From assembly GCA_902781215.1 (NCBI GenBank), contig CACZIO010000002.1:32180-96179 (forward strand): a stretch of 64,000 nucleotides of DNA, in the 5' to 3' direction. The position numbers and the translations under genes are program-made. The notes under the pieces are model-generated. The model saw only the letters and a list, made by a program, of their open reading frames with translations, was not told where the DNA came from and did no database searches. Shown here piece by piece: positions 132-54,114 of the stretch. How positions within the stretch are numbered: the first letter of the stretch is position 1; every line of letters begins with the position of its first letter. Source of the stretch: an uncultured Lachnospiraceae bacterium (GTDB taxonomy: Bacteria > Bacillota > Clostridia > Lachnospirales > Lachnospiraceae).

Positions 132-1373
132 ATGAGTGATAAGAAAACCGATGTGATCGCCCGCGCCCGGCAGATCATCGACAGTTATCAGGGCGCGCCC
201 ATTCGGATCATGGAAGTGTGCGGAACACATACCCACGAGATCTTCCGTCTGGGAATCCGCCAGATCCTGCCGCCGACCATCCGCCTCATCTCGGGGCCGG
301 GATGTCCCGTCTGCGTGACGCCGGTGGACTTCATCGACGAGGCGATCCTGCTGGCCATGGAGCATGGTGCCACGATCTGTACTTTCGGAGACCTGGTCCG
401 CGTGCCCGGCTCAGCCGGCGTTCCCGCGGTCAGAAAAACAGGCGCAGATGCCTCTGATAACACTGCAAAAGCCGCAGAGAAAACAGCAGCAAAAGCCGCA
501 GAGAATCCGAAATCAGAGACAGAAGAGACAGAAAAAGACGCGGCATCCGCTGCCGGTCCTGCTGACTCTTCCGCAGGAAAGGGCCGCCGGATCGGCAGCC
601 TAGCGGCCGCGCGTGCCGCCGGCGCGAAAATCCAGGTGGTCTATGCCCCTCAGGACGCGGTGGCCTACGCGGAGGAACATCCGCAGGAACAGGTCGTCTT
701 TTTGTCCGTCGGATTCGAGACCACGACGCCCACCGCATGTCTGGCGGTCCAGGAGGCGCAGCAGAAGGGACTGACCAATTTTTCCATTCTCACGGCCAAC
801 AAGACCATGCCCTCCGCCTACGCGGCCATGAAGGACAGCACGGACGCCTTCCTCTATCCCGGACACGTCCATGCCATTACGGGGACGGGGATTTGCGAGG
901 AACTTGCCAGGAAGGGCACCAGCGGTGTCGTGGCGGGCTTCACCGCGAAGGAACTCATGACCGCCCTGGCCGTGGTCGTGAAGAAGACCCAGGAGGGGAA
1001 GCCCTTTTTTGAGAATTGCTATCCCCGTGTCGTCCGGCCGGAGGGATCCCCCGCGGCGCAGAAGCTCGTTGAAAAAATGATGGAGCCCTGCGACGCCCGC
1101 TGGCGCGGCATCGGCGTTCTGCCGGATTCCGGCATGAAGCTGCGCGCCGAATATGCCGACTACGATGCCCGCGTCAAATTTGCCCTGCCCGCCATGGAGG
1201 GACGCGAGAATCCCGCATGCCGCTGCGGCGAAGTCCTGCAGGGAAAATGCCTTCCCTCGGACTGCAAAGTCTTCGGGACCGGCTGCACGCCCGAGCACCC
1301 GGTCGGCGCCTGCATGGTCTCCGGCGAGGGCGCCTGCTCCGCCTTTTACCTCTACGGCGGCGACAGGATGTGA
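132..1373 (+). CDS. hypD: HypD, [NiFe] hydrogenase maturation Fe-S protein
   Basis: HypD works with HypC and HypE to build the Fe(CN)2CO group of [NiFe] hydrogenases in the cytoplasm. The 413-residue product has the family signature CGTHTH at residues 30-35, GPGCPVC near 56-61, and a cysteine-rich C-terminus (CRCGEVLQGKC, then DCKVFGTGC) that binds the 4Fe-4S cluster. An AGGAG about 11 bases before the ATG supports the start. HypD normally runs straight from the VPGS segment into the next helix; here about 55 Ala/Glu/Lys-rich residues (about 97-153) are inserted without breaking the frame. hypE follows after 66 bases. hypC and hypF are not in the window and may lie upstream. The family call is secure; the role of the insertion is unknown. 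Confidence 0.95.
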   Translation: MSDKKTDVIARARQIIDSYQGAPIRIMEVCGTHTHEIFRLGIRQILPPTIRLISGPGCPVCVTPVDFIDEAILLAMEHGATICTFGDLVRVPGSAGVPAVRKTGADASDNTAKAAEKTAAKAAENPKSETEETEKDAASAAGPADSSAGKGRRIGSLAAARAAGAKIQVVYAPQDAVAYAEEHPQEQVVFLSVGFETTTPTACLAVQEAQQKGLTNFSILTANKTMPSAYAAMKDSTDAFLYPGHVHAITGTGICEELARKGTSGVVAGFTAKELMTALAVVVKKTQEGKPFFENCYPRVVRPEGSPAAQKLVEKMMEPCDARWRGIGVLPDSGMKLRAEYADYDARVKFALPAMEGRENPACRCGEVLQGKCLPSDCKVFGTGCTPEHPVGACMVSGEGACSAFYLYGGDRM

Positions 1374-1439: not shown

Positions 1440-2465
1440 ATGTTACAGGACACAGTGACGCTCGCCCATGGCGCGGGCGGTAAACAGACCTCGGAACTGA
1501 TTGAAAAAGTTTTCAAAGCGCATTTCGAAAATCCGCTCTTTACACCGGATGATGCCGCCGTCCTCCAGATCGGACCGGGGGCGGACGGACAGCTGCCCAG
1601 GCTGGCCATGTCCACCGACGGCTTCATCGTCTCCCCGTCCTTTTTCCCGGGCGGCAATATCGGCAAGCTCTCCATCTGCGGCACGGTCAATGACCTGGCC
1701 TGCATGGGCGCGCAGCCCCTCTACATGACCTGCGCTTTCGTGATCGAAGAGGGCTTCCCCATGTCGAAGCTGGAGGAGATCGCCGCCGCCATGGAAAAGA
1801 CCGCCGCGGAGGCGGGCGTCTGCATCGTCGCAGGTGACACCAAGGTCGCCGGCAGGGGACAGGTGGACGGCGTCTTCATCACGACCACGGCGGTCGGCCG
1901 CATCATGGACGGCGTCACGACCGGCGGCGCCCTGGCAAAGCCCGGAGACAGCGTCATCGTCACCGGCGATATCGGCCGCCACGGCTGCACCATCCTCCTG
2001 GCCCGCGATGATTACGGCATCGAGGCGGACGTCACCAGCGACTGCGCGCCCCTGTGGAATGCCGTGCGCAATGTCCTGACCGAAGTCCCCGGCGTCCATG
2101 TCATCCGCGACGCCACCAGGGGCGGTGTCGGAACCGTCCTCTACGAAATCGCCGGACAGAGTAATGTCGGCTTTGCCCTCGACGCGGAGAACATCCCCGT
2201 CGATCCCGGCGTCCGCGGCGTCTGCGGCATGCTGGGCCTCGAGCCCCTCTACCTGGCCTGCGAGGGCCGCCTGGTCATCATCACACCCCCGGAGACCCGG
2301 GACAAAGTTCTCGACATCCTCCGCAACAGCCCTCACACCGAAGGCGCCGCCTGCATCGGAACCGTCACCGAGGACCACCCCGGCCGCGTCGTCCTCCAGA
2401 CCGAGATCGGCGCCCAGACCATCCTGCCCCAGCCCGGAAATGAATTATTGCCGAGGATCTGCTGA
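1440..2465 (+). CDS. hypE: HypE, carbamoyl-dehydrating hydrogenase maturation protein
   Basis: HypE dehydrates a carbamoyl group carried on its C-terminal cysteine to thiocyanate and donates cyanide to iron on HypC/HypD. The 341-residue protein has the AIR-synthase/PurM-like fold signature: an N-terminal AHGAGG motif, a DDAAV motif near residue 38, and a DATRGGVGT segment near 225. It ends in PRIC, the essential terminal cysteine, so it should be functional. It sits in one operon with hypD and the small TM1266-like gene, which begins 19 bases after the stop. Carbamoylation needs HypF, which is not in this window. Confidence 0.96.
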   Translation: MLQDTVTLAHGAGGKQTSELIEKVFKAHFENPLFTPDDAAVLQIGPGADGQLPRLAMSTDGFIVSPSFFPGGNIGKLSICGTVNDLACMGAQPLYMTCAFVIEEGFPMSKLEEIAAAMEKTAAEAGVCIVAGDTKVAGRGQVDGVFITTTAVGRIMDGVTTGGALAKPGDSVIVTGDIGRHGCTILLARDDYGIEADVTSDCAPLWNAVRNVLTEVPGVHVIRDATRGGVGTVLYEIAGQSNVGFALDAENIPVDPGVRGVCGMLGLEPLYLACEGRLVIITPPETRDKVLDILRNSPHTEGAACIGTVTEDHPGRVVLQTEIGAQTILPQPGNELLPRIC

Positions 2466-2484: not shown

Positions 2485-2730
2485 ATGAAGACCCGCGTCG
2501 CCGTCATTGCCATCATCATCGAGAACCCCGAATCCGCCGAAGGCGTCAACACCATCCTGCACGCTTACAGACAGTACGTGATCGGCCGGATGGGGATTCC
2601 CTATCACGCGAAAAATGTCAATATCATCAGTGTGGCGGTCGACGCTCCGGAACCCGAGATCACGGCCCTGTCCGGTAAGATCGGACGCCTGCCCGGCGTC
2701 AGTGCCAAAACTGCCTACTCGAAAATCTGA
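2485..2730 (+). CDS. TM1266-type iron-only hydrogenase system regulator
   Basis: This 81-residue protein matches the TM1266 family, small proteins with an ACT/NikR-C-like beta-alpha-beta fold that are usually found beside [FeFe]-hydrogenase maturation genes and are thought to be regulators. The sequence shows VAVIAIIIENPE at the start, then a helix (VNTILHAYRQYVIGRMGIPY) and a second strand NVNIISVAVDA. The ATG at 2485 is preceded by GCGAGGAG, and the gene starts 19 bases after hypE. Its presence beside hypDE links this cluster to the hydF gene about 8 kb downstream. It has no DNA-binding domain of its own, and its effector is unknown. Confidence 0.82.
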   Translation: MKTRVAVIAIIIENPESAEGVNTILHAYRQYVIGRMGIPYHAKNVNIISVAVDAPEPEITALSGKIGRLPGVSAKTAYSKI

Positions 2731-2927: not shown

Positions 2928-3809
2928 ATGTTGAAAATAGCCTTTTATGGAAAGGGCGGGATCGGAAAAACGACCACCGTCACCAATATTTCCGCAGTTC
3001 TCGCGGAAAAAGGATATCGGGTCCTGCAGGTGGGATGCGACCCCAAGGCAGACTCCACGAGGCTTCTGCTGGCGGGCGCGCAGGCGAATACGGAAGACAA
3101 ATGTTCGGCTGCGCAGGCAAATACGGAATATAACTGTCCGGTTGCGGATGAGGGAGGAATATCCGAAATCTCCGCCATGTTCCATGACCTTCGAAACGGC
3201 GGAACCCGGACGGTCATGGACCACATCCGTGCGCGGCAGCCTTTTTCGCCGGAGGACATCGTCCGTCCCGGCTACGCGGGCGTCCTCTGTGCGGAGGCCG
3301 GCGGCCCCCTGCCCGGACAGGGCTGCGCGGGTCGGGCGGTCATCACGGCGCTCGAAAAGATGGAGGAGATCGGCGTATATGACCAGTACAAGCCGGATAT
3401 CGTCCTCTACGATGTTCTGGGCGATGTCGTCTGCGGCGGTTTTGCCATGCCTATGCGCAGAGGCTATGCCGACTATATTTACATCCTGACCTCCGGCGAG
3501 AGCATGTCGCTCTACGCTGCCGCCAATATCGGACTTGCGCTTGAGCACTTCCGGGGCCGCGGCTACGCGCAGCTTGGCGGGATCATCCTCAACCGCAGGA
3601 ACGTCCCGGAGGAAGAGGAAAGAGCGCAGGACCTTGCCGCCGAGCTTTCATCGCAGATCATCGGCACGCTGTCCCAGAGCAATGATGTGCGGCGGGCTGA
3701 GGAGATGGGACAATGCGTCATACAGGCTTTTCCGGATTCAGTCATCGCGCAGGAATACAGGGCGCTGGCGGAGACGATCGAGAAGTCGGTCGTTTTGCCG
3801 AACGGCTAA
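2928..3809 (+). CDS. NifH-like nitrogenase iron protein (ATP-dependent reductase)
   Basis: This 293-residue protein is a NifH/BchL/CfbC-type Fe protein: a homodimer that would couple ATP hydrolysis to electron transfer into a component-1 partner. It has the P-loop GKGGIGKTT (residues 8-16), GCDPKADST (36-44) and both cluster ligands, Cys133 in GCAGRAVIT and Cys169 in DVLGDVVCGGFAMP. The start at 2928 is chosen for its GGAGG at 2914-2918; the frame is open upstream to 2886. Residues 51-72 are an 11-residue tandem duplication (AQANTE...) absent from ordinary NifH, adding two cysteines. Likely partners are the component-1-like proteins at 5810-9121, separated from it by hipBA. The stop codon lies inside the first copy of the hipBA operator repeat. 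The substrate is unknown; nitrogen fixation is unlikely given no nifB/E/N. Confidence 0.88.
   Translation: MLKIAFYGKGGIGKTTTVTNISAVLAEKGYRVLQVGCDPKADSTRLLLAGAQANTEDKCSAAQANTEYNCPVADEGGISEISAMFHDLRNGGTRTVMDHIRARQPFSPEDIVRPGYAGVLCAEAGGPLPGQGCAGRAVITALEKMEEIGVYDQYKPDIVLYDVLGDVVCGGFAMPMRRGYADYIYILTSGESMSLYAAANIGLALEHFRGRGYAQLGGIILNRRNVPEEEERAQDLAAELSSQIIGTLSQSNDVRRAEEMGQCVIQAFPDSVIAQEYRALAETIEKSVVLPNG
3078..3143 (+). repeat. 33-bp tandem duplication inside the NifH-like gene
   Basis: Two in-frame 33-base copies (3078-3110 and 3111-3143) encode AQANTEDKCSA and AQANTEYNCPV. They add 22 residues after the switch-like GCDPKADST segment without breaking the frame. Confidence 0.8.
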
Positions 3810-3963
3810 GAATTACCTAATCTTGACATAATTTCGCCGAACGGCTAATATTTTGCATAAGGATATGAAATTTCGCCGAACGGCTAAATGTTATGTATAT
3901 AGACAGAGAGTTTCGCCGAACGGCTAAAATGCCTTATGAAAAAACCGTACTTCGCCGAACGGC
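3793..3963 (+). repeat. Five-copy operator-like repeat array before hipBA
   Basis: Five copies of a palindromic core, TTCGCCGAACGGCTAA or a close variant, recur with the GCCGAACGGC core starting at 3797, 3836, 3875, 3915 and 3954, a period of 39-40 bp. The spacers are unrelated 22-24 base sequences. The core is a dyad (TT-GCCG-AA-CGGC-AA), as expected for a dimeric helix-turn-helix protein. Copy 1 overlaps the NifH-like stop codon, copy 2 fills the spacer of the hipBA promoter, and copy 5 is slightly degenerate. It is not a CRISPR array: the repeat is too short and palindromic, and no cas genes are near. Confidence 0.85.
3823..3851 (+). promoter_or_regulatory. Predicted sigma-A promoter of hipBA
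   Basis: TTGACA (3823-3828) and TAATAT (3846-3851) are separated by exactly 17 bases. That spacer holds operator copy 2, so a protein bound there would block RNA polymerase. The transcript would have a leader of about 175 bases containing operator copies 3-5. Confidence 0.75.
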
Positions 3964-4032
3964 GAGATCTCTCGCATAAGTGCATTTAATTTTACTTGAC
4001 AGCGAAAAACAGAAACCGACCGGGAGAACAGT

Positions 4033-4248
4033 ATGCGTATCACAGATGCGGCTTCCTTTGGTGAAGCGCTCCGCAGAAGAAGAAAAGAGTTGGGATATAC
4101 ACAGGCCTTTCTGTCTGATTTTTCCGGTTTCAGTGTGAGTTTTATCTCGGATCTGGAAAACGGAAAAAAGACGGCGGAGCTGGAAAAGGCGATTTTTCTG
4201 GCAAATCTTCTGGGACTGGATCTGGATCTGACACCCAGGGGATGGTGA
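4033..4248 (+). CDS. hipB: HipB-like antitoxin / Xre-family repressor
   Basis: This 71-residue protein is a Cro/C1 (HTH_3) domain: SFGEALRRRRKELGYTQ, then SDFSGFSVSFISDLENGKKT, the classic recognition helix and following turn. It lies directly before a HipA kinase gene, so it should be the antitoxin that neutralises HipA and represses the operon through the repeat array upstream. GGGAG at 4022-4026 precedes the ATG. The partner gene starts 110 bases later, an unusually long gap for a hipBA pair. Confidence 0.87.
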   Translation: MRITDAASFGEALRRRRKELGYTQAFLSDFSGFSVSFISDLENGKKTAELEKAIFLANLLGLDLDLTPRGW

Positions 4249-4262
4249 CCGAAACTGTCAGA

Positions 4263-4340
4263 GCAAGAGACTGTGGCTGAGTATGATAGGACAGGCGCCG
4301 GCGATACCTGTGTGCTAACATGCTCTTGCGAGCGGCAAGA
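4263..4340 (+). promoter_or_regulatory. Competing inverted repeats in the hipB-hipA spacer
   Basis: GCAAGAG (4263-4269) can pair with CTCTTGC (4323-4329), while TCTTGC (4324-4329) can instead pair with GCAAGA (4335-4340). The two pairings exclude each other and end about 20 bases before the hipA TTG start, so they could affect hipA translation. This is a visual reading with no folding calculation. Confidence 0.35.
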
Positions 4341-4358
4341 TTATGAAAGAGTGAATCA

Positions 4359-5633
4359 TTGGAGTATCTCGTAAGTATTGAGAGAGAAGGAAAACAGGTT
4401 CTGGTGGGAACGATCGGGGGAGAGGATTCCGGCGCCGCCCGTTTTTCCTATGTGGAAAAATATCTGAATGATCCCGATGCGGCGGCAATCTCGATTCATC
4501 TTCCCCTTCAGAAGGAGGCCTTTTCGCCCGCGGACACAAAACTCTATTTTGAGGGCCTGCTCCCGGAAGGATTTACGCGCAGATCGGTCGCGCAGTGGAT
4601 GCACCTGGATGAGAACGACTATCTCTCTATTCTGCACGGCCTGGGAAGGGAATGCCTGGGGGCTGTCAGGGTATCCGCCCCGGAGGACCGGCCGGAGGAA
4701 GCATATGAGAGCGTGTCTGCGGAACAGGTGCAGGCGCTGGCGGCAGAGGGCGCGACAAGGTCAGCCGAGATGGTGACAAAGGCACATCTGTCCCTGACCG
4801 GCGCCTCGGGAAAGGTCGGTCTATATTTTGACTCAAAATCGGAAAAATGGTTTCTTCCCAAAGGCACGGCACCGAGCACCCACATCGTGAAACAGAGTCA
4901 TGTGCGCCTGGATGGCATCGTGACAAATGAACAGCTGTCACTGCTGACTGCCTCCGGATGCGGAATCGAGATCCCCGAGAGTTTCATCATTAACACAGGA
5001 AATGGCGAAGACAGCGAGATTCTGTTTGCGACCCGGCGCTACGACCGTGTTTTTCCGGATCAGGCCCGGCGGGTCGATGACCTGCCCTGCCCCTACCGCC
5101 TTCACCAGGAGGACTTCTCCCAGGCTCTTGGGATTCCGGCCTCGGAAAAATATGAACGCGAATCAGGTCAGTATATGAAAAAAATGTTTGACCTGCTGCG
5201 CGTCAGATCCGCGGATCCCGTCAAAGACCAGCTCCGGCTCTGGGACTGTATCGTATTCAGTTACCTGATCGGCAATACAGATGCCCACATCAAAAACTAT
5301 TCTCTGCTCTACAGTCCGGACCTGAAGAAGATCCGCCTGGCGCCTGCCTACGACATTATCAGTACTACTGTCTATGAGGCCAGCACCAGGGAGATGTCCT
5401 TCCACATCGGCGGCAGATATCTGATCGAAGAGATCGACAGGGAAGCCTTCCGGGAAGCAGCCGGCGCTGCCGGACTCGGTGAAAAAATGGCCATGCGCCG
5501 CTTTGACGCCATGTACGGAAACTTCCGGGAAAAACTGCGTTCCGCCGCGGAGACCCTGGAGAAAGAAGGGTACAGAAACGCCCGTGACATGGAGGAGAGG
5601 ATCCTTCGGACCGGCGGGTATGGAAGACTATAG
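4359..5633 (+). CDS. hipA: HipA-like serine/threonine kinase toxin
   Basis: HipA toxins phosphorylate a cellular target (glutamyl-tRNA synthetase in E. coli) and cause growth arrest. The 424-residue protein has the N-terminal HipA subdomain (YFEGLLPEGFTRR near 63-75), the glycine-loop/ATP region LPKGTAPSTHIVK at 166-178, the catalytic segment IGNTDAHIKN near 303-312, and a metal-binding APAYDI segment shortly after. All core kinase residues appear present. The start is TTG at 4359: the frame has a stop at 4344-4346 and no ATG between. With the weak AAAGAG ribosome site, this predicts low toxin output. The gene lies between the nitrogenase-like iron protein and its component-1 partners. Confidence 0.9.
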   Translation: MEYLVSIEREGKQVLVGTIGGEDSGAARFSYVEKYLNDPDAAAISIHLPLQKEAFSPADTKLYFEGLLPEGFTRRSVAQWMHLDENDYLSILHGLGRECLGAVRVSAPEDRPEEAYESVSAEQVQALAAEGATRSAEMVTKAHLSLTGASGKVGLYFDSKSEKWFLPKGTAPSTHIVKQSHVRLDGIVTNEQLSLLTASGCGIEIPESFIINTGNGEDSEILFATRRYDRVFPDQARRVDDLPCPYRLHQEDFSQALGIPASEKYERESGQYMKKMFDLLRVRSADPVKDQLRLWDCIVFSYLIGNTDAHIKNYSLLYSPDLKKIRLAPAYDIISTTVYEASTREMSFHIGGRYLIEEIDREAFREAAGAAGLGEKMAMRRFDAMYGNFREKLRSAAETLEKEGYRNARDMEERILRTGGYGRL

Positions 5634-5706
5634 ATAACAAGCCTGCTAGACAACGAGCCTTCGGGAGAACCTGGACAGGGAAACGCACATACCAGACGAA
5701 AAAAAC

Positions 5707-5795
5707 CAGTCTGCAGAAACCAGACTGCAGAAAAACAGACCGCAGAAAAACAGACTGCCGAAAAACAGTCTGCAGACAATCAGACTGCAGAAAGA
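5707..5795 (+). repeat. Six tandem copies of a 15-bp CAGACTGCAGAAAAA unit
   Basis: Six near-identical units, each with a CTGCAG-like core, run head to tail and end just before the ribosome site (AGGAGG) of the gene at 5810. The first unit is one base short. One frame would read QTAEK repeats, but nothing shows that it is translated. Confidence 0.85.
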
Positions 5796-5809
5796 AACAG
5801 GAGGTTTCC

Positions 5810-7459
5810 ATGCTGCGCAGAGTGGGAATTGATGGAAACATCGCGGAGAAAAACAGAAGAGACATAGACGGAACAGGGGCACATGTGCGCATCGCCGATG
5901 CCGGTTTTCCGGTCCCCTTTGCCCACAGCCTGGAATTCAACGCCCCGGTCCACGGGACCTGGAACATCGTCCACATCGGCATGCTGGTGCCCGAGTGCCA
6001 CCAGATCTACGTCTGCGCCGACAACTGTATGCGCGGCGTCGTCCTGACGGCGGCGGAAATGGATGCTGCAGACCGTTTTTCCAGTGTCCTGATCGAGGAG
6101 GACGACCTCTACGACGAAAACCTGGAGACCATCACCATTGAGGGCGTGACGGACGCCATCAACCGCCTGCCCTACCGCCCGCGGGCTGTGGCTCTCTTTC
6201 TGGTCTGTCTCCATCATTTTGTCGGCACGGACGCCGCCTATGTCTTCCGGACACTCGAGGAGCGCTTCCCGCACATCGACTTCATGCGCTGCTGGATGGA
6301 CCCCGTCATGCAGAAGACCGGCCTGACACCGGAGCAGAAGCTCAAGGAGGCCATGTTCCGGCCCGTCCGTCCTCTGCCCGCCGATCCGCGCCTGATTTGT
6401 GTCCTGGGCGATAACCAGCCCCTGGATCCGGACAGCGACCTCGCGGCCCTTGCGCGGGAACACGGCTGCAGGATCCTGCAGCTCCACGCGGGGAACCTTG
6501 CCTACAAGGGGACGCGGAGCGCAGACTCGACGGATTCTTTGTCTGGCCGCAGCCGGAACGGTGAAAGCCTGTCCCGTGCGGAGGACATTCCCACAGAAGT
6601 CATTCAAGCAGAGGACATGCCTGCAGAAAAAATGACCGACACCGTATTCGGCTGCAAAACCTACGACGACTACCTGCAGATTGGTGCCGCTTCCCTCTTT
6701 ATTACCCGCAGTCCCGCCGGGATCCATGGCGTCACCCAGCTGGCCAAGCGGCTGGGCCGCCCCTTCCTCTACCTGCCGCCCGCATCCGGCGCGGAGGAAA
6801 TCCTGGAGGAGAGAAGACAGCTGGAGGAAGCCCTGCGGCAGATCCGTCAGGGAGCATCGAATACAGAAAGCTTCCATGATGCTCCGGAAAAAGGAAGCGG
6901 AGTATTGAAAACAGACAAATTTGAATCCGGAACAAGTGGCTCCAATGCATTCGAAAACGCTGTAAATACATCCGCCGCATTTGAAGAAGGGAAGCAGAGG
7001 GCCGAAACGGCCCTGGCGCATGCACATGCCCTGATCGGCGATACGGAGATCACTCTGGACCACATCGTGACGCCCCGCCCCCTGAGCCTGGCAAGGCTCC
7101 TGCTGGAGCACGGCTTCCACGTCACCCGGGTCTATCTGGACGCCATCCTCCCGGAAGAGGAGAAAGACTTTCGCTGGTTACAGGACCACCATCCGGACCT
7201 GTGCCTGAGCGCGACCATTCACCCTAAGATGCGCGTCCTGCACGAGGCAGAGAATGCCGGCAGCATGCTGGCCCTGGGTCCCAAGGCCGCCTGGTTCGGC
7301 GGAACCGCTCACTTCGTCAACCTGGTCGAGTGCGGCGGGCAGTGGGGCCTTTCAGGCATTGAAAAGCTGGCCGGCCTCATGGAGGATGCCTTCCTGCATG
7401 AAAAGGATACACGCGCCCTGGTGCCCAGAAAGGGCTTCGGCTGTGCCTGCGTCCTGTAA
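5810..7459 (+). CDS. Nitrogenase component-1-like subunit (NifD/K superfamily), first of pair
   Basis: This 549-residue protein resembles nitrogenase component 1 / oxidoreductase subunits built of Rossmann-like domains that bind Fe-S clusters. Supporting segments are HGTWNIVHIGM (48-58) with Cys63, Cys69 and Cys73 following (PECHQIYVCADNC), a central domain with VCLHHFVGTDAAYVF, ITRSPAGIHGVTQLAKRLG, and a C-terminal domain ending GFGCACVL with Cys545 and Cys547. The cysteine spacing differs from NifD, so a standard P-cluster or FeMo-cofactor site is not evident. Two stretches (about 227-275 and 345-395) are low-complexity insertions. An AGGAGG precedes the ATG. It is followed after 93 bases by a second component-1-like gene, presumably forming a heteromer served by the NifH-like protein at 2928. 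The substrate is unknown. Confidence 0.8.
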   Translation: MLRRVGIDGNIAEKNRRDIDGTGAHVRIADAGFPVPFAHSLEFNAPVHGTWNIVHIGMLVPECHQIYVCADNCMRGVVLTAAEMDAADRFSSVLIEEDDLYDENLETITIEGVTDAINRLPYRPRAVALFLVCLHHFVGTDAAYVFRTLEERFPHIDFMRCWMDPVMQKTGLTPEQKLKEAMFRPVRPLPADPRLICVLGDNQPLDPDSDLAALAREHGCRILQLHAGNLAYKGTRSADSTDSLSGRSRNGESLSRAEDIPTEVIQAEDMPAEKMTDTVFGCKTYDDYLQIGAASLFITRSPAGIHGVTQLAKRLGRPFLYLPPASGAEEILEERRQLEEALRQIRQGASNTESFHDAPEKGSGVLKTDKFESGTSGSNAFENAVNTSAAFEEGKQRAETALAHAHALIGDTEITLDHIVTPRPLSLARLLLEHGFHVTRVYLDAILPEEEKDFRWLQDHHPDLCLSATIHPKMRVLHEAENAGSMLALGPKAAWFGGTAHFVNLVECGGQWGLSGIEKLAGLMEDAFLHEKDTRALVPRKGFGCACVL

Positions 7460-7552
7460 CAGGAGTGTGCGACAGGAGCGGCGACGCACAAACCGGGCGT
7501 TTACCTTTTACCTCAACATTATGATCGAAACCAGAAAGAGCAGGAGAATATC

Positions 7553-9121
7553 ATGCGGCAGGTCTTTCGAAAAATACCGGTCTACACAGGCGACGTCTCC
7601 GGCGTCTGCAGCGCCCTGTTTGAGCTGGGCGGCATGGTCGTCATGCACGACCCCTCCGGCTGCAATTCCACCTATAATACACACGACGAGATCCGCTGGT
7701 ACGACCACGACAGCCTGATTTTCCTGTCGGGCCTCAACGAGATGGAGGCTGTCATGGGCAGTGACGAGGCCCTGATCCGCGACATCGTGGACACCGCCCG
7801 CATCTATCACCCCGCCTTTATCGCCATCGCCAATTCGCCCATCCCCTACATCATCGGGATGGACTTCGACGCCATCTGCCGGATCGTGGAAGAAGAGGCA
7901 GGCATCCCTTCCTTCTACATCCCGACCAACGGAATGCACGACTATACCCATGGCGCCGGCCTGGCCTTTCTGCGCCTGGCGGAGCGGATGATCCCGATTC
8001 CCGAACAGCCGGAGGCGGACCGGACGATTCCTACGCAGGGAGATTTATTTGAACAAAAATCAGAGAACCTGCAGGTGGGTTATCCGGAGAAAAAGGAAGA
8101 TGACCCGAAAGAGATTTTTTCGGAAAAAACGGGAGAAAACAGAGAAAAAATCCGTTGCAACATTCTGGGTATGACGCCGCTGGACTTTGCGGCATCCTCC
8201 AGCCTGGCGACTGTGCGGGAAAAGATTGAAAAAGCCGGCCTGGAGATCCTGTCCTGCTGGGCCATGGGAGATGCCTCTGAAGATTTAACTTCCGGCAGTT
8301 CAGACGCAGGCAGCTTTCATTCGGGCAGCCACAACCATGGCAGCTTTAACCCGTGCAGCCTCGACGCGATCCGCCGCAGTGCGGAGGCAGATGTCAGTCT
8401 GGTCATTTCCTCGACAGGCTTCCCTGTCGCTCAGTACCTGTGGGATCATTTCGATATTCCCTTCGTCGTCGGGATCCCTGCGGCGGGCGTTGAAAAAGAG
8501 TACTTTGCCGCAGTGGAAAAAGCCGTCAGAGAGAAGGCCAGCCAGTTTCCTTTTCAAAACCGGGACGCGTTTTGCGAGCGCCTGAGATCGGCGGAACCTG
8601 TATCAGAACATGATTTAGATAAAAGCAAGACCTGCACATACAGGTCGGGCGGACAGGAACTCCCGGTAAGTGAAAAACAGCCGGCCGGCCATCACATCTG
8701 CCTGATCGGCGAGCCCGTCATCATGACATCCCTGGCGGCAGCAGTGGAAAAAAAGACCGGTGCGCAGACACATGTATTCGGCGCGACCGAAAACAGCGCT
8801 CCCTTCCTGGGGCCTGCCGATGCGGCACTGACCGGAGAAGAAGAGTTGGAGAGGGCGCTTGGCCGGATCGTTGAGGAGAGCCGTGTTCCGGTGGGAACAC
8901 AGGCGCAGCCGGGGACAGAGACACAGGCGGAAACAGGAGCACAAAGAGACGTCGAAGTGGGTGCCTCCACGACAGGGGCAGAACCCGTTTCCGTCGTCGC
9001 AGACCCCTGCTACGCGGATATTCTTCCCGACGGCTGTGACCTGATCCGCCTTCCTCACCTGGCCTTTTCCGGTAGGATTTTTTTGAAGGAGATCCCGGAC
9101 CTGTTGCAGTGGCCGATGTAA
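7553..9121 (+). CDS. Nitrogenase component-1-like subunit (NifD/K superfamily), second of pair
   Basis: This 522-residue protein begins like a NifK/NifD-type subunit: SGVCSALFELGG with Cys19, HDPSGCNSTY with Cys37, then LSGLNEMEAVMGSDEAL, which parallels the conserved motif before the third cluster ligand in component 1. At the expected third-cysteine position (about 93-98) it reads ANSPIP, so that ligand is missing. Later segments (IIGMDFDAICRIVEEEAGIPSFYIPTNG) fit the superfamily. The middle holds low-complexity Ser/Gly/His and Glu-rich insertions (about 160-200 and 243-275) and another near 445-480. AGCAGGAG precedes the ATG at 7553. It would pair with the protein at 5810-7459, and the two likely share a transcript. 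Confidence 0.8.
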   Translation: MRQVFRKIPVYTGDVSGVCSALFELGGMVVMHDPSGCNSTYNTHDEIRWYDHDSLIFLSGLNEMEAVMGSDEALIRDIVDTARIYHPAFIAIANSPIPYIIGMDFDAICRIVEEEAGIPSFYIPTNGMHDYTHGAGLAFLRLAERMIPIPEQPEADRTIPTQGDLFEQKSENLQVGYPEKKEDDPKEIFSEKTGENREKIRCNILGMTPLDFAASSSLATVREKIEKAGLEILSCWAMGDASEDLTSGSSDAGSFHSGSHNHGSFNPCSLDAIRRSAEADVSLVISSTGFPVAQYLWDHFDIPFVVGIPAAGVEKEYFAAVEKAVREKASQFPFQNRDAFCERLRSAEPVSEHDLDKSKTCTYRSGGQELPVSEKQPAGHHICLIGEPVIMTSLAAAVEKKTGAQTHVFGATENSAPFLGPADAALTGEEELERALGRIVEESRVPVGTQAQPGTETQAETGAQRDVEVGASTTGAEPVSVVADPCYADILPDGCDLIRLPHLAFSGRIFLKEIPDLLQWPM

Positions 9122-9264
9122 AAAGGTGAATACGGGAAGGGATGTCCCGACCGATTCCAGGCGCAAAGGAAATTCGAAAAATACTTGTTAACACTGTTTG
9201 CACACTTTCATTTTCCATATACTTTGTGGAAGATTGGCTGATAAGAAATCTTCAGAAAGGACTC

Positions 9265-10287
9265 ATGAAAATGGCTGAATATGATCTGAAACGTCTGGAA
9301 GTTGCCATCCAGTACATCAACCGCATGGTGTCGGGCAGAAATCCGGTCACGAACCGGCCCGCGCCGGAAAATGAAGTCCTGACCAATCCCAACGTGAACC
9401 GCTGCCTGCAGTTTGTCAGCGAGATCCTGCAGGAGGTCAAGAGCACCGGAGGAATCGTCGGAAAGCCTCCCAGAAAGGCCAGGGAGCCGAAGCCCTCCAT
9501 TGCGGAGACCTTCCCCTATGAGATCCTGCATGGTTTTCAGTACCGCCAGGATCAGCAGATCTCTTATTTTCTAAAACAGATCGGCGAGCTCTTTCCAGAG
9601 GACCAGGAGAATGCGCCTGGTGTGAGCGCGCCGACCATCAACAACTGGCTGCGGGCAAACGGCTATCTGGAAAAGCGCATGATGGAGGACATCGGCAAGG
9701 AGGCCTCCGTCCCCACGGAAAAGGGCGCCGGGATCGGAATTTATTCTGAGCGCGCCGGAATTGGCGGCAACGAGTACTACCGGATCTGGTACAACGAACA
9801 GGCCCAGCAGTTCCTGATCGACCATTTCCGTCAGATCCTGACCGATACCGAGGCCACACGCGCCCGCAGGCAGGAGGAGAGAAAGGCTTCCAGGAGAGAG
9901 GCGCGCAGAGAGTCCGGGACAGCCGGGCGGGCGGAGCATGCCCGTCAGGAGCCTGAAAAGCAGATGGGCGCTTTTCAGGCAGAACAGCGGCAGTCAGCCG
10001 AATCAATGCATTGGCAGGGTCAGCAGCAGTCAGCTGCAGCGGGACGGAGACAGGAGCAGCAGTCAGCTGCACCGGCACAGGGCCAGTGGCAGACAACTGC
10101 GCCCGCGCAGGCCCAGGATGATCCCGCTTTCGCGTCCCTTCTCTCCAGCGTTTCTCCGCAGGATTTCTATGGACAGGAGCAGGGGCAGGATCCTTATGGC
10201 ATGCAGGATCCGTATGCCACGGACAGTGCCGCCGCGGACTTTTTCGGCGACGGTTGGGAGAGCGCGGACAGCGATATTCCGTGGTGA
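9265..10287 (+). CDS. Unrecognised protein with Gln/Ala-rich tail
   Basis: I do not recognise a named family with confidence. From the ATG at 9265 (AGAAAGG just upstream; 9271 is an alternative, and the frame is open back to 9142) it encodes 340 residues. The first about 200 look folded: AEYDLKRLEVAIQYINRMVSGRNPVTN, then IAETFPYEILHGFQYRQDQQISYFLKQIGELF and a PTINNWLRANGYLEKR segment reminiscent of a winged-helix turn. Residues after about 205 are charged, then Gln/Ala-rich repeats, ending ESADSDIPW. It sits between the nitrogenase-like genes and hydF, all on the same strand. Its C-terminal coding end is repeated twice more after the stop codon. A role with either neighbour is only inferred from position. 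Confidence 0.7.
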   Translation: MKMAEYDLKRLEVAIQYINRMVSGRNPVTNRPAPENEVLTNPNVNRCLQFVSEILQEVKSTGGIVGKPPRKAREPKPSIAETFPYEILHGFQYRQDQQISYFLKQIGELFPEDQENAPGVSAPTINNWLRANGYLEKRMMEDIGKEASVPTEKGAGIGIYSERAGIGGNEYYRIWYNEQAQQFLIDHFRQILTDTEATRARRQEERKASRREARRESGTAGRAEHARQEPEKQMGAFQAEQRQSAESMHWQGQQQSAAAGRRQEQQSAAPAQGQWQTTAPAQAQDDPAFASLLSSVSPQDFYGQEQGQDPYGMQDPYATDSAAADFFGDGWESADSDIPW

Positions 10288-10377
10288 ATGACGGGCTGGG
10301 AGAGCGCAGACAGTGATATTCCGTGGTGAATGCCGGGATAGGAGAGCGCGGACAGTGATATTCTTTGGTGAATGCTG
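10254..10377 (+). repeat. 42-bp tandem triplication over a gene 3' end
   Basis: Three copies of a unit containing GAGAGCGCGGACAG and GATATTCCGTGGTGAATG recur every 42 bp (AGCGC at 10261, 10303 and 10345). Copy 1 encodes the last residues and stop of the upstream gene; copies 2 and 3 lie beyond the stop in the same frame, so each carries its own stop codon. The array fills the gap to hydF. Confidence 0.85.
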
Positions 10378-10407
10378 TTTACAGGATCGAGTGACAGGAG
10401 AAAGAAG

Positions 10408-11667
10408 ATGAGTTTAAATGATACCCCCTCCGGGGAGCGGATCCACATCGGATTTTTTGGCCGCAGGAACGCGGGAAAATCGAGTATTGTCAATGCAGTG
10501 ACTGGCCAGGATCTGGCCGTCGTCTCGCAGGTCGCGGGCACGACGACAGACCCCGTGCGCAAGGCCATGGAGCTGCTGCCCCTGGGGCCGGTCCTGATCA
10601 TTGATACGCCCGGCTTCGATGATGAGGGCGCGCTCGGTGAGCTCCGTGTACAGAAGACCAAGAAGATCCTGGGAGAGACGGACATCGCCATCCTCGTTGT
10701 GGACGGCAGCCGGGGGCTCTGTACCTGCGACAGGGAGCTTCTGGATCTTTTTGCCGAGAAAAAGATTCCCTGCATCCTGGCAGAGAACAAGATTGACCTG
10801 GTGAGAAGTCAGGAATCCGCTCCGGCGTCGAAGACGGAAACGGAAAGGGTTCCCGATTCCGTTCAGTTCCATGTCCGCGCCAGCGCGAAGACCGGCGAGG
10901 GGATTCAGGAACTCAAGGAGAAGATTGGAGACCTCTACCGGGCCTGGAAGGCGGGCCAGGGGGCGGAGCCCAGGCTGGTCTCAGACCTCCTGCAGCCCGG
11001 AGACCTGGTCATCCTGGTCATCCCGATCGACAAGGCGGCGCCCAAGGGACGCCTCATCCTGCCCCAGCAGCAGGTCATCCGCGATATACTGGACGCCGGC
11101 TGCAGTGTGCTCTGTACACAGACGGAGGGCGTCACCAGGACCCTGGAGGGCTTGCGCACACCGCCGGCCATGGTCATCACCGACAGCCAAGCCTTCGCGG
11201 AAGTGCAGAAGGCTGTTCCGGAGAGCATACCGCTCACGTCCTTCTCCATCCTCATGGCCCGTTACAAGGGCTTTCTGGAGACAGCGGCCCTGGGCGCGGC
11301 CCACATCGACCGCCTGCAGGACGGTGACCGGGTCCTCATCGCGGAGGGCTGCACCCACCACCGCCAGTGCGACGACATCGGGACGGTCAAGCTCCCCTGC
11401 TGGCTCCGCGCCCGAACAGGCAGGGAAATCGTGATCGAGACGTCCTCCGGTACCGGCTTTCCGGAAGACCTGACGAAATACGCGCTGGTCATCCACTGCG
11501 GTGGATGCATGCTCAACGCCCGCGAGATGCAGAGCCGGATCGGCCGGGCTGTCGCCCAGAATGTGCCTGTTACCAACTACGGCACCGCCATCGCCTTCAT
11601 GAACGGAATCCTGCAGCGCAGCGTCGCCATGTTCCCGGATTTGGCCCGGAAGCTGTCAGAGGTGTGA
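10408..11667 (+). CDS. hydF: HydF, [FeFe] hydrogenase H-cluster maturation GTPase
   Basis: HydF is the scaffold GTPase that carries the di-iron precursor made by HydE and HydG and passes it to [FeFe] hydrogenase. The 419-residue product has GTPase motifs GRRNAGKSS near the start, DTPG near 70, NKID near 130, and the cluster-binding set CTHH near 313 with HCGGC near 364. The start at 10408 follows AGGAGAAAG; the open frame extends to 10372. hydE, hydG and a hydrogenase gene are not in the window. Its position closes a cluster that begins with hypDE, bringing parts of both hydrogenase maturation systems together. Confidence 0.94.
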   Translation: MSLNDTPSGERIHIGFFGRRNAGKSSIVNAVTGQDLAVVSQVAGTTTDPVRKAMELLPLGPVLIIDTPGFDDEGALGELRVQKTKKILGETDIAILVVDGSRGLCTCDRELLDLFAEKKIPCILAENKIDLVRSQESAPASKTETERVPDSVQFHVRASAKTGEGIQELKEKIGDLYRAWKAGQGAEPRLVSDLLQPGDLVILVIPIDKAAPKGRLILPQQQVIRDILDAGCSVLCTQTEGVTRTLEGLRTPPAMVITDSQAFAEVQKAVPESIPLTSFSILMARYKGFLETAALGAAHIDRLQDGDRVLIAEGCTHHRQCDDIGTVKLPCWLRARTGREIVIETSSGTGFPEDLTKYALVIHCGGCMLNAREMQSRIGRAVAQNVPVTNYGTAIAFMNGILQRSVAMFPDLARKLSEV

Positions 11668-49043: not shown

Positions 49044-49247
49044 GGCATACTTTTTTTGACGGATCATTCATACGCTGTATAAAAAAGGACGGGGATGCCC
49101 GGACATTCTGTAATTGTTTTGCGCAGAGGCGCGGATTTCATCCGCAGCAGACCAGAGGTCTGCCGGAGTCCTGCGAAAAGCCTGCGGCGCGAAGCAGTAC
49201 GTAGTTTTGATTTACGAGTCAGTAAGCAGGAGGTCATAACCAATATT

Positions 49248-50975
49248 ATGAAAGCAGGAAGACGAATTGCGGGCGTATGCATCGCACTGGCTATGACGGC
49301 ATCGATTTTCGCGGGCTGCAGCAAAAAGGATCAGAAGACAGAGATCCAGGCGACCAAGGTGGAGACGCAGACTGCGGAGCGGGGAAATCTCGACATCACC
49401 GGAACCTATATCGGGACGGTCGCGCCCCACACCTCCGTCAACGTGACGCCCCTGGTAACCGGGACGGTCAAGACCGTCAACGTCAAGGTCGGGGACAAGG
49501 TCAAGGCCGGCGATGTCCTGTGCACCTTTGACGACACGGCGGCGGAGCTCCAGCTCAAGAGCGCGCAGAATGCCGTGGAGAGTGCCCAGGCCGGCAAGGA
49601 GGCCGCCAAGGACCAGATCCACGCCGCCAAAAAGCAGGCGGAGGCCAGCGTCACCTCCATGGAGGGCCAGATCAAGACCCTGCGCGCCCAGAAAAAATCC
49701 TCCGAAAAGCAGCTCGAGCAGGTGAAGGGCAGCCTGGACCAGCTCAAGGCGGCATCGGAGGCGGCTGCAGAGGCCTACGGCGCGGCCAAGGGCAGGTATG
49801 ACGGCGCCAGCCAGCTCTACCTGAGCGCCCAGGCCTTCCTGACTGCCAATCCGGACTGTAAGACAAGCGGGGGGCTGGCTGCGGCAGCGAGCTATGTTGC
49901 GCCCCCGGCGCCTGTGGCGGTGCCCTCGGGAGACAGCACCCAGGCGGCGGCCGTTCCGGAGCCCTCCAAAGAGGAGCAGGCGGCTGTGAAAGCAGCCCTG
50001 GCCAAGAAGGAACAGGCACTGGCACTCCAGAAAGCCCTGGGGGAGATCGGGATCACCGTCGAAAACCTCGACGAGACGAGCATCAACACCCTCAAGGACC
50101 AGATGGAGCAGGCCCAGAAGGCCAGCGAGGCGGCATCGACCGGCTACACGCAGGCGGCGGCTTCCGTCGGCCAGCTGGAGGCCGCGATCGCCCAGGTCAA
50201 GGCCCAGATCGAGGCCCTGGAGGACAATATCGACGCCGCGGAGGACGCGGCCAATGCGGGCGGTGGCACCAAGGCCTATGACGCCCAGATCAAGGCGGCC
50301 CAGACCGGTGTCGAGTCCGCCCAGTACCAGAAGGACCTCTATACGGTGACGGCGCCCATCGGCGGCGTCATTGAGTCGGTCAATGTGACGGCGGACGAGG
50401 TCTCGGCCCAGGGCATGCCCGCCTTTATCATCTCGGACAAGGAGGCGATGGAGGTCTCCTTCTACGTGCCGGAGGAGGTGCGGGACTTTCTGAAAAACGG
50501 TGACGAGGTCAAGGTGGAAGCCTCCGACGGGGAGGTGAAGGGCCGGGTCTCCCTCATCGGGACGGCTGTGGACCAGCAGAAGGGCCTGTTTGAGATCGTC
50601 GCGGAGATCACGGGCGTAACGGACAAGAGCCTGCTCTCCAACACCAGCGTGAGCCTGTCCCTGGTGACCAATTCCGTCAAGGGTGAGATCCTGATTCCCT
50701 TTGACGCGGTCTACTATGACAATGACCAGGCCTATGTCTTCATCGCCAAAAAGGGGTCTGATGCCACGCGCGCGGAGCGCAGGGATGTCAAGACCGGCGT
50801 CTACAACAACGAGCAGATCTCCATCGTGGAGGGCCTGACCGGCGGCGAGGAGGTCATCACCACCTGGGGCGCGGGCCTCAAGGACGGCGCAGTGGTCGAG
50901 ATCCTGCATCCGGCGGCGGAAAATAAGACCGGGAACACGACCGGAAATACAAGCGGAAATAAGACAGCGGAATAA
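49248..50975 (+). CDS. Efflux RND periplasmic-adaptor-like lipoprotein (MFP/HlyD family)
   Basis: A 575-residue membrane fusion protein. It has a lipoprotein signal (ALAMTASIFAGCSKK), a biotinyl-lipoyl half (TGTVKTVNVKVGDKVKAGDVL), a long Ala/Gln/Lys-rich coiled-coil hairpin (about 100-375) interrupted by a Pro/Ala linker near 210-240, the second lipoyl half (YTVTAPIGGVIESVNV), a beta-barrel domain and a terminal low-complexity TGNTTGNTSGNKTAE tail. AGGAGG is about 14 bases before the ATG at 49248. The pair with the RND gene is 73 bases downstream. Because no outer membrane exists in this lineage, it must bridge to the cell surface rather than to a TolC. Confidence 0.9.
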   Translation: MKAGRRIAGVCIALAMTASIFAGCSKKDQKTEIQATKVETQTAERGNLDITGTYIGTVAPHTSVNVTPLVTGTVKTVNVKVGDKVKAGDVLCTFDDTAAELQLKSAQNAVESAQAGKEAAKDQIHAAKKQAEASVTSMEGQIKTLRAQKKSSEKQLEQVKGSLDQLKAASEAAAEAYGAAKGRYDGASQLYLSAQAFLTANPDCKTSGGLAAAASYVAPPAPVAVPSGDSTQAAAVPEPSKEEQAAVKAALAKKEQALALQKALGEIGITVENLDETSINTLKDQMEQAQKASEAASTGYTQAAASVGQLEAAIAQVKAQIEALEDNIDAAEDAANAGGGTKAYDAQIKAAQTGVESAQYQKDLYTVTAPIGGVIESVNVTADEVSAQGMPAFIISDKEAMEVSFYVPEEVRDFLKNGDEVKVEASDGEVKGRVSLIGTAVDQQKGLFEIVAEITGVTDKSLLSNTSVSLSLVTNSVKGEILIPFDAVYYDNDQAYVFIAKKGSDATRAERRDVKTGVYNNEQISIVEGLTGGEEVITTWGAGLKDGAVVEILHPAAENKTGNTTGNTSGNKTAE

Positions 50976-50988
50976 TAAAGCCGCGCGA

Positions 50989-51016
50989 TGCCTGCGCACT
51001 GACGTGCTCCGGCATG
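50989..51016. repeat. Small intergenic hairpin repeat, copy C
   Basis: ATGCCTGCGCAC, TGAC, GTGCTCCGGCAT: the copy with the longest stem, 33 bases before the RND gene. Confidence 0.6.
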
Positions 51017-51048
51017 GTCAGAGAAGCATGCGATAAAAGGATTTTTCT

Positions 51049-54000: not shown

Positions 54001-54114
54001 TACTATCTCATCATCTCCAAAAAAGACAAGACGGACCGGCCGGACAGAAGGCTCCCCTTCTGGAGGCGCCGGGCCCTGCCCGCAGGAGGAAACAATGGCG
54101 GCGAAGAAGGATGA
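51049..54114 (+). CDS. RND-family efflux permease (AcrB/HAE-like)
   Basis: A 1021-residue proton-driven exporter: MNITKLVLRRPVSTALVILGIFVFG at the start, then the large extracytoplasmic loop, the central helices with GMIVDNSIVVIESCFRA carrying the proton-relay aspartates, and the second half repeating the pattern with IGSFLLLFVMRSSMNMVSMMGFLMLMGIAVNNGILLVDT. AAAAGGA precedes the ATG. Its 3' end overlaps holA by 20 bases. With the MFP and MarR genes it forms a probable drug or lipid export unit. Confidence 0.95.
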   Translation: MNITKLVLRRPVSTALVILGIFVFGIFSIPQFDMELIPNIDLPMYVVMTVYPGASPTDIDDLVTSKIEDSAETLSGVDSVISYSYNNYCMVALTYDYGKNMNDAYTSLSAALDQLSLPDDCQDPTIIELDVNQAPTVMISATADGSSDMMAYINETVVPTLEGVNNVARVEVSGGRTNYVRVRLNEDRMRQYGLNISGISQQLGAADYNVPAGRIKAGSQEISLSTSAEFLSLQDLENTTLTTGTGAQIRLADIADISMGVQDPSSVSRYNGQENVSIQVSKVQSASTVRVASSVRRAVEDLEKQDAGVTYDLVYDSGAEILSALKSVAETLALGVVFAMLVLFIFFGDIRASLIVGSSMPISVFATLVIMFLLGFDLNIITTGALVIAIGMIVDNSIVVIESCFRATEEGDDLREAAVRGAGTVMMSIVASTITTCVVYLPLTMIKGLAGQMFSQLGVIIVVAMIASLVSALCIVPLLYVYVQPREKKVSRINGALDRVRGGYDGLLRRLLYRKKTTLLVSVLLLILSFVIASTLNFELIPADYDGSITITADFRPGTRLEIMDREMTRIEEMVRDDELFENYSLTISGSQATVTAYAVDDCPRTSESAVEEYTNALADMTGADIAVGPSGGSSSAMSANYSSDTIDVVVQSEDMDALADACEQIEEEMAVLPGVIHVKSDASTRQTAGHVVVDPQKAAAAGLAPAQVAMDLYQTMNGVTAAHMDIDGNQYDIILNYADGAYEDINQLMDKTLAGAMGNQVVLHDIAEVSYDQQLQMIQKSGGKIQNTVSATPADGEKGSVQKAVNSLMADIELPEGVEQSSSMLDDTRTENLSAIFYAILAGIFLVFLVMAMQFESPRFSLMVMTCIPFSLIGSFLLLFVMRSSMNMVSMMGFLMLMGIAVNNGILLVDTVNQEKERMSLDDALVEAGKIRLRPILMTTLTTILAMVPMGWFSDNKMMSSMAFVIIGGLVASTVLCLLMMPSYYLIISKKDKTDRPDRRLPFWRRRALPAGGNNGGEEG

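Follow-up and report, generated by a model that had tools for sequence, protein, structure and literature searches.

The stretch of DNA considered here, called the window, comprises 64,000 nucleotides of the genome of an uncultured Lachnospiraceae bacterium (G000:C2:32180-96179; genome size 3.33 Mb, 94.67% complete) and contains genes for a nitrogenase-like reductase, the components of which are designated H2, D2, and K2. H2 (2928..3809, + strand, 293 residues) is a NifH-like ATP-dependent Fe protein of the NifH/FrxC family that matches PF00142 with 285.8 bits and has the cysteines, C133 and C169, that the preliminary description of this DNA had placed at these positions. K2 (7553..9121, +, 522 residues) is a component-1-like subunit that matches PF00148 with 76.6 bits (cut-off 28.6) and contains the motif HDPSGCNST, and D2 (5810..7459, +, 549 residues), which scores 24.7 bits and thus lies under this cut-off, is assigned as a second such subunit from its predicted structure and a fold search; both therefore belong to the NifD/K superfamily, as had been proposed. 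All three proteins are real, but a HipB/HipA toxin-antitoxin module (4033-5633) parts H2 from D2, and the locus extends in both directions beyond the stretch originally reported, from 7 kb ahead of the window to hydF at 10372-11667. The complete gene order is H1, D1-K1, hypF, hypC, hypD, hypE, TM1266, H2, (hipBA), D2, K2, ORF X (an open reading frame), hydF.

The additional genes include a second nitrogenase-like set, found just outside the window in 17 kb of upstream DNA that was read, which encodes a NifH-like protein, H1 (L005:9918-10673), and a 957-residue D1-K1 fusion (L005:10761-13634), both under the Nif, Cfb, and Bch cut-offs. Between the two reductase sets lie the hypFCDE genes, for Fe(CN)2CO synthesis, and the gene for TM1266. 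HypF (1008 residues, L005:13723-16749; 675.1 bits, cut-off 466.1) and HypC (L005:16818-17030; 54 bits, cut-off 48) are encoded upstream of the window. HypD, the scaffold of Fe(CN)2CO assembly (132..1373, +; TIGR00075, 362.5 bits, cut-off 192.8), retains the CGTHTH, GPGCPVC, and GFETT motifs, and HypE, which makes the cyanide group (1440..2465, +; TIGR02124, 400.8 bits, cut-off 251.6), keeps the cysteine of its C-terminal PRIC motif. The TM1266-family protein, a putative iron-only hydrogenase system regulator, is encoded at 2485..2730 (+; TIGR03959, 110.6 bits, cut-off 60.8). HydF, the GTPase that acts as scaffold for the H-cluster, is encoded downstream of K2 (10372..11667, +; TIGR03918, 546.4 bits, cut-off 325.6) with its CxH...HCxxC motif kept; its start codon may be at 10408 instead of 10372.

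When compared with the PDB, the predicted structure of D2 (predicted local distance difference test score 80.7, predicted template modeling score 0.83) hits component-1 chains of nitrogenase (for the best hit, E 4e-14 and TM-score 0.53/0.64) and resembles chains of AnfK, NifEN, and the dark-operative protochlorophyllide oxidoreductase (DPOR). The best PDB sequence match of the K2 and D profiles is NifE, with 77.7 and 63.6 bits, respectively. The pairing of D and K proteins as a heteromer, which the preliminary description had put forward for modeling, was tried on the D1-K1 fusion only: Foldseek matches the model to single component-1 chains, but its alignment with the fused NifEN chain 9i0g_A (E 1.1e-26) has a TM-score of 0.37 and a root mean square deviation of 27.4, so that the individual chains are supported but the relative placement of the two halves is unconfirmed. 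C73 and C133 of D2 are conserved in 61/61 aligned rows and C69 in 59/61, whereas K2 has C37 in 38/38 rows, C19 in 35/38, and no third N-terminal cysteine. The HDxSGCN motif of K2 is found in 80/80 loci, and a GC(x)C tail, which reads GCACVL in this genome, ends 66 of the 76 complete D2 sequences but none of 41 D1 sequences. According to a report on methylthio-alkane reductase (Mar; PMC12552129), its P-cluster draws three cysteines from each subunit, and MarD adds Cys270 and His429. As a P-cluster of the Mar type needs three cysteines per subunit, the pattern in D2 and K2 makes it more likely that they hold a single cluster smaller than a P-cluster, presumably [4Fe-4S].

Phylogenetic trees place H1, H2, D1, D2, K1, and K2 in one supported clade each (support 100/99 for H2), and the H, D, and K sets, including a third type described below, stand apart from NifH, NifD/NifE, and NifK. 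It should be noted that the reference rows of these trees, which were drawn from a single Lachnospiraceae genome and a number of named plasmids, include NifE but no NifN, Cfb, or Mar rows, and that BchL and BchB form long branches. Against curated models, H2 scores 289.9 bits with nifH (cut-off 394.35); D2 has no match to nifD and K2 scores 20 bits with nifK (cut-off 427.3), and the nifE score is 36.7 bits (cut-off 505.1). The CfbC and CfbD models give 285 of the 402 bits needed for H2 and 23 of 268.4 bits for K2; the BchL model yields 172.5 bits (cut-off 345.15) and the BchX model 158 bits (cut-off 331.2). A nitrogen-fixing nitrogenase is thereby rejected by both the nif cut-offs and the trees, and assignments to Cfb and Bch by the cut-offs; Mar is rejected by the cysteine pattern alone, with the Mar pattern taken from PMC12552129. 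All four PF00148 matches in the genome (E <= 0.001) are within this locus, so there is no sign through this family of nifD, nifK, nifE, or nifN elsewhere, NifB being outside the genome-wide search. The view that this is a nitrogenase-like two-component system that by all signs does not fix nitrogen and falls outside the named clades tested is thus upheld, for NifHDK by tree and for Nif, Cfb, and Bch by cut-off.

Relatives were sought by scanning one genome per species (84,980 species) with a K2 alignment, which gave at least 596 stretches, of which 581 were confirmed and 80 kept; all counts for the 80 loci refer to stretches 4 to 21 kb long, many of them ended by contig edges. Among their sources are Faecalicatena contorta, Coprococcus comes, Blautia, Roseburia faecis, Eubacterium ramulus, Clostridium ljungdahlii, Clostridium carboxidivorans, Clostridium drakei, Olsenella profusa, and uncultured Oscillospiraceae and Atopobiaceae. 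Two layouts can be distinguished: 53 loci have hyp genes and 19 have genes for a FecCD-type importer, none has both and eight have neither (in two of these, L114 and L132, K2 is the only gene recognized). D1 or K1 is present in 44/53 loci of the hyp type but 0/19 of the importer type. TM1266 is encoded in 51 loci, HydF in 30, and HydE in 29, with at least one of the three in 60, and HydG is in none of the 80 neighborhoods. A second sample of 150 genomes from the same family, including the source genome, has K2 matches of any kind (E <= 0.001) in 35 and K2 proper in 10 (G000, G025, G069, G071, G083, G091, G117, G124, G134, and G136); nine of these are inside the K2 clade, and G069 was not a row in the tree. 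The source gene order is repeated in G025 and in G124, where the stretch stops at K2, and is also kept in G069 and G083, where the locus closes with hydF and hydE and H2 is not recognized; the locus of G136 is spread over two contigs, and those of G071 and G091 are split. The importer layout is represented by G117 (HydE, H2, D2, K2, binding protein, FecCD, ATPase, HydF, TM1266) and G134 (TM1266, FecCD, ATPase, H2, D2, K2, binding protein, HydF). Sets of a third type, H3-D3-K3 with an importer (G004, G048, G059, G072, and G143), were considered as kin of K2 and rejected; they were excluded from the K2 count because their K proteins are outside the K2 clade and they do not track HydG, which G072 and G143 have, while G004 and G059 are without HydF.

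The H-cluster of [FeFe]-hydrogenases is held to require HydG. In the source genome, however, HydG is not above cut-off, the best HydG-like protein being ThiH (510.9 bits), encoded beside a gene that by eye resembles thiG, whereas HydE is present (G000:C24, 572.9 bits) together with a group A6 HydA (815.3 bits) that has TSCCPGW and EIMACPGGCINGGGQP motifs and, as middle motif, IPC rather than MPC. Across the family sample HydG is above cut-off in 73/150 genomes and HydF in 86/150, four HydG-positive genomes being without HydF. Among the 86 HydF-positive genomes, HydG is found in 0/10 with K2 versus 69/76 without it (Fisher p 5.5e-9, which is only nominal because the K2 set was fixed after the hits had been seen and the genomes are related). 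The 50 genomes behind the named loci were likewise searched for HydG (the genome-wide HydF counts come from the family sample only), and it is not above cut-off in 48, or in 46/48 when G150 and G174, duplicates of G124 and G136, are removed. HydE is above cut-off in all 10 family genomes with K2 (in G091 as a contig-edge fragment) and in 47/48 named-locus genomes, and is absent from all four HydF-negative genomes tested (G003, G004, G043, and G059). The HydA of G059 (L064) carries the motifs TSCSPGW and MPCTAKKFE, yet in this genome none of HydE, HydF, and HydG is above cut-off.

Trees of HydE (49 rows, 16 of them from 20 fetched HydG-having loci) and HydF (52 rows, with bootstrap values unsettled) interleave rows from genomes that have HydG with those from genomes that have K2. 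The hyp-type label needs four changes in the HydE tree, at least three of them on strongly supported branches, although three could equal one gain and two losses, and at least two changes are forced in the HydF tree; the HydE of G124 is nested in a group of HydG-having rows (100/96). The mixing of the trees and their several forced changes make it unlikely that HydG was exchanged in a single inherited event, and HydE seems able to accept its ligand supply from either route.

The association of the locus with the Hyp proteins is also informative. The source genome has HypC, HypD, HypE, and HypF above their cut-offs but no [NiFe] large subunit (PF00374). In the family sample HypF occurs in 22 genomes (21 above cut-off and a contig-edge fragment in G010) and large subunits in 16, and the seven genomes that have HypF without a large subunit all carry the cluster, whereas 14/14 HypF genomes without the cluster have a large subunit; G069 has both. 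It should be noted that 15/16 large-subunit matches cover only the first 69-70 model positions; those in G003, G011, G049, and G082 lie 2 kb or less from hypF and are, from this proximity, taken to represent divergent large subunits. The named-locus set has a large subunit in 9/48 genomes, and 31/40 genomes of the hyp type have none. The residues of cyanide chemistry are kept: the terminal cysteine of HypE, which according to PMC12130793 carries the cyanide group in the PRIC motif, in 53/53 sequences, the MC of HypC in 49/49, and the motifs of HypD in 49/50. Since these motifs are kept where there is no [NiFe] large subunit, HypCDEF must serve something else.

The hypCDEF, TM1266, hydF, and, in relatives, hydE neighbors, together with the absence of hydG, indicate that the likely function of the reductases is in building a hydrogenase cofactor as opposed to reducing a growth substrate. 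The substrate, which had been left unassigned, can be narrowed in this way. From the gene content and its distribution, it is likely that the reductases take part in building the H-cluster in place of HydG; the fuller statement, that the reductases with HypCDEF (or the importer) replace HydG in supplying the CO and cyanide ligands of the H-cluster, is probably correct and is the best explanation overall. HypF and HypE would make cyanide from carbamoyl phosphate, which HypC and HypD would load on iron to give Fe(CN)2CO, and both ATP-driven reductases would send electrons of very low potential to a cluster situated between the D and K subunits. Their output could be CO ligands, for example by reduction of CO2, or an Fe-CN-CO unit remodeled into a synthon like that of HydG, or both, and HydE and HydF would complete the [2Fe] unit and insert it into HydA. 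In the importer layout an imported compound would substitute for HypCDEF and H1-D1-K1. Nitrogenase Fe protein and component 1 are able to reduce CO2 to CO. Any allocation of products to the two sets is tentative and more apt to be wrong than right; a still more speculative version is that H1/D1-K1 provides HypCD with CO generated from CO2 or a comparable donor and that H2/D2-K2 converts Fe-CN-CO to the H-cluster precursor, possibly on the D2 tail. If the pathway is as proposed, it would unite the chemistries of nitrogenase, [NiFe]-hydrogenase, and [FeFe]-hydrogenase.

Several observations weigh against the replacement of HydG, in addition to the nominal status of the Fisher test. HydG is present alongside K2 in C. 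drakei and Oliverpabstia intestinalis, HydE is not above cut-off in one of the 48 named-locus genomes (G155, a Blautia), and the importer layout is without a known cyanide source. Seven HydF-positive, HydG-negative family genomes have no K2; two of these (G114 and G122) are without HydE, G047 has a HydG fragment, and completeness is 86% for G011 and 69% for G128, but G048 and G142 have no such excuse. HydA-type proteins occur in 138/150 family genomes as against 86 for HydF and 73 for HydG, so that HydA by itself proves no maturation route, and PMC9431212 names a HydG by motif in Clostridium autoethanogenum and atypical HydG-like genes in other acetogens. An alternative is that HypCDEF and both reductases build some other Fe-CN/CO cofactor for another enzyme, the loss of HydG being a side effect of lineage. 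Such a role would account for the intact HypCDEF motifs in genomes lacking a [NiFe] large subunit and for HydF and HydE being in just 30 and 29 of the 80 locus stretches, but in the hyp-free importer layout HydE and HydF are neighbors of the same reductase, and the missing HydG of 48/50 genomes together with the mixed HydE tree favors the H-cluster, which leaves this alternative improbable.

The importer genes raise the question of whether the reductases reduce an iron chelate or heme taken up from outside and thereby provide iron for the assembly of hydrogenase. The third type of set and the importer layout both adjoin FecCD, Peripla_BP_2, and ATPase genes, as does a set in Treponema saccharophilum, and a Sporomusa termitida set whose D and K fall on the Nif side in the trees is likewise beside an importer. 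Nevertheless, importer genes are in 0/53 hyp-type loci, and a supply of iron or tetrapyrrole leaves both the HydG exchange and the HypCDEF without a [NiFe] client unexplained, so it merits little credence. It is highly improbable that a divergent or ThiH-type radical S-adenosylmethionine enzyme supplies CO and cyanide, with the reductases unrelated or regulatory: HydG-model matches below the cut-off (170-217 bits) do occur in 27/50 genomes, and Di Leonardo et al. propose atypical HydG-like proteins (PMC9431212), but the match in the source genome is ThiH, beside the thiG-like gene seen by eye, all 27 stop by model position 394/470, short of the C-terminal part of HydG, and 23/50 genomes, including that of C. 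ljungdahlii, have no match over 100 bits. A nitrogenase or Mar identity for the locus itself, for which the shared Fe-protein and component-1 folds speak, is extremely improbable, as its proteins are outside the NifH, NifD, and NifK clades and the N-terminal part of K2 offers a single invariant cysteine and a second that is nearly so, versus the three P-cluster cysteines per subunit described for Mar in PMC12552129.

The proposed replacement of HydG gives the system similarities to several characterized ones, with distinctions in each case. NifE is the best PDB sequence match of the K2 and D profiles, and a role in building a metal cofactor, proposed here, is established for NifEN, but the locus proteins form a separate clade and are far under the nifE cut-off. 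CfbCD, DPOR and chlorophyllide oxidoreductase, and MarHDK are likewise nitrogenase-like reductases with other substrates; H2 and K2, however, score far under the CfbC, CfbD, and BchL cut-offs, and the cysteines of D2/K2 differ from the Mar arrangement described in PMC12552129. With HydEFG maturation the source genome shares HydE, HydF, TM1266, and HydA and probably the same goal, the H-cluster, but nitrogenase-like reductases with HypCDEF, or an importer, are found in the place of HydG. HypABCDEF maturation is represented by HypF, HypC, HypD, and HypE with their motifs, which by homology could synthesize Fe(CN)2CO, but the genes lie between two reductase sets in a genome that has no [NiFe] large subunit.

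In the gut and in gas-fermenting acetogens, hydrogen is turned over mainly by [FeFe]-hydrogenases. In the study of Di Leonardo et al. (2022; PMC9431212), C. ljungdahlii and C. carboxidivorans are reported to have HydE and HydF without HydG, and C. drakei to have HydG, with which the present HydG and HydE results agree where the genomes overlap. The same study leaves unexplained both the lack of a recognizable hydG in several industrial acetogens and the finding that C. ljungdahlii and others have HypCDEF but not HypAB, and it records two copies each of HypC, HypD, and HypE in C. carboxidivorans; the word nitrogenase occurs once in that text, in the title of a reference. The main text of a transposon study of C. 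autoethanogenum (PMC9004356) makes no mention of nitrogenase, HypF, HydE, or HydF, and none of the literature matches listed, a scope that excludes preprints and most subscription papers, links nitrogenase-like genes to Hyp/Hyd maturation. How the CO ligand of [NiFe]-hydrogenases arises under anoxic conditions is described as still elusive in PMC11565642. If the replacement of HydG is correct, the cluster would explain both the missing hydG and the HypAB-less hypCDEF of acetogens, account for the [FeFe]-hydrogenases of HydG-less gut bacteria and acetogens in a manner open to direct genetic test, bear on the anoxic origin of the [NiFe] CO ligand, and extend the roles of nitrogenase-like enzymes to the synthesis of cofactor ligands or to their assembly.

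The remaining features of the locus are of less certain significance. ORF X (9142..10287, +, 381 residues), between K2 and hydF, has no Pfam or NCBIfam match, and its membership of the system is doubtful. The module between H2 and D2 consists of a HipB-like helix-turn-helix protein called by eye (4033-4248, +) and HipA (4359-5633, +; PF07804 and PF13657 matches), with four spaced direct repeats, TTCGCCGAACGGC, beside it at 3833, 3872, 3912, and 3951; none of the 18 stretches searched in relatives has a HipA match, and the insert is presumed to have no share in the function of the locus. Proteins encoded by this locus exceed their G124 counterparts in length (D2, 549 versus 442 residues; K2, 522 versus 384; HypD, 413 versus 349; H2, 293 versus 255; HypF, 1008 versus 797), and D2 and K2 of G083 are likewise long (524 and 479 residues). 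In the importer layout, the FecCD and ATPase genes can have a copy of TM1266 on either side (L096, L106, L109, L127, L140, L144, and others). Nitrogenase-like sets that adjoin importers are also found on the Treponema saccharophilum plasmid pTS1 (L168), on Sporomusa termitida pSPTER (L172), and in L044, L045, and L047-L049; the Sporomusa set also adjoins an alpha/beta hydrolase, and its D and K group on the Nif side and its H with H1/H2/H3. Further nitrogenase-like D subunits from the same bacterial family (L155, L157, L158, L162, and L166) score at best 132-175 bits with nifE or alpha-chain models, far under the cut-offs. Elsewhere in the window, genes for an efflux pump of HlyD-type and AcrB-type proteins are at 49095-54114.

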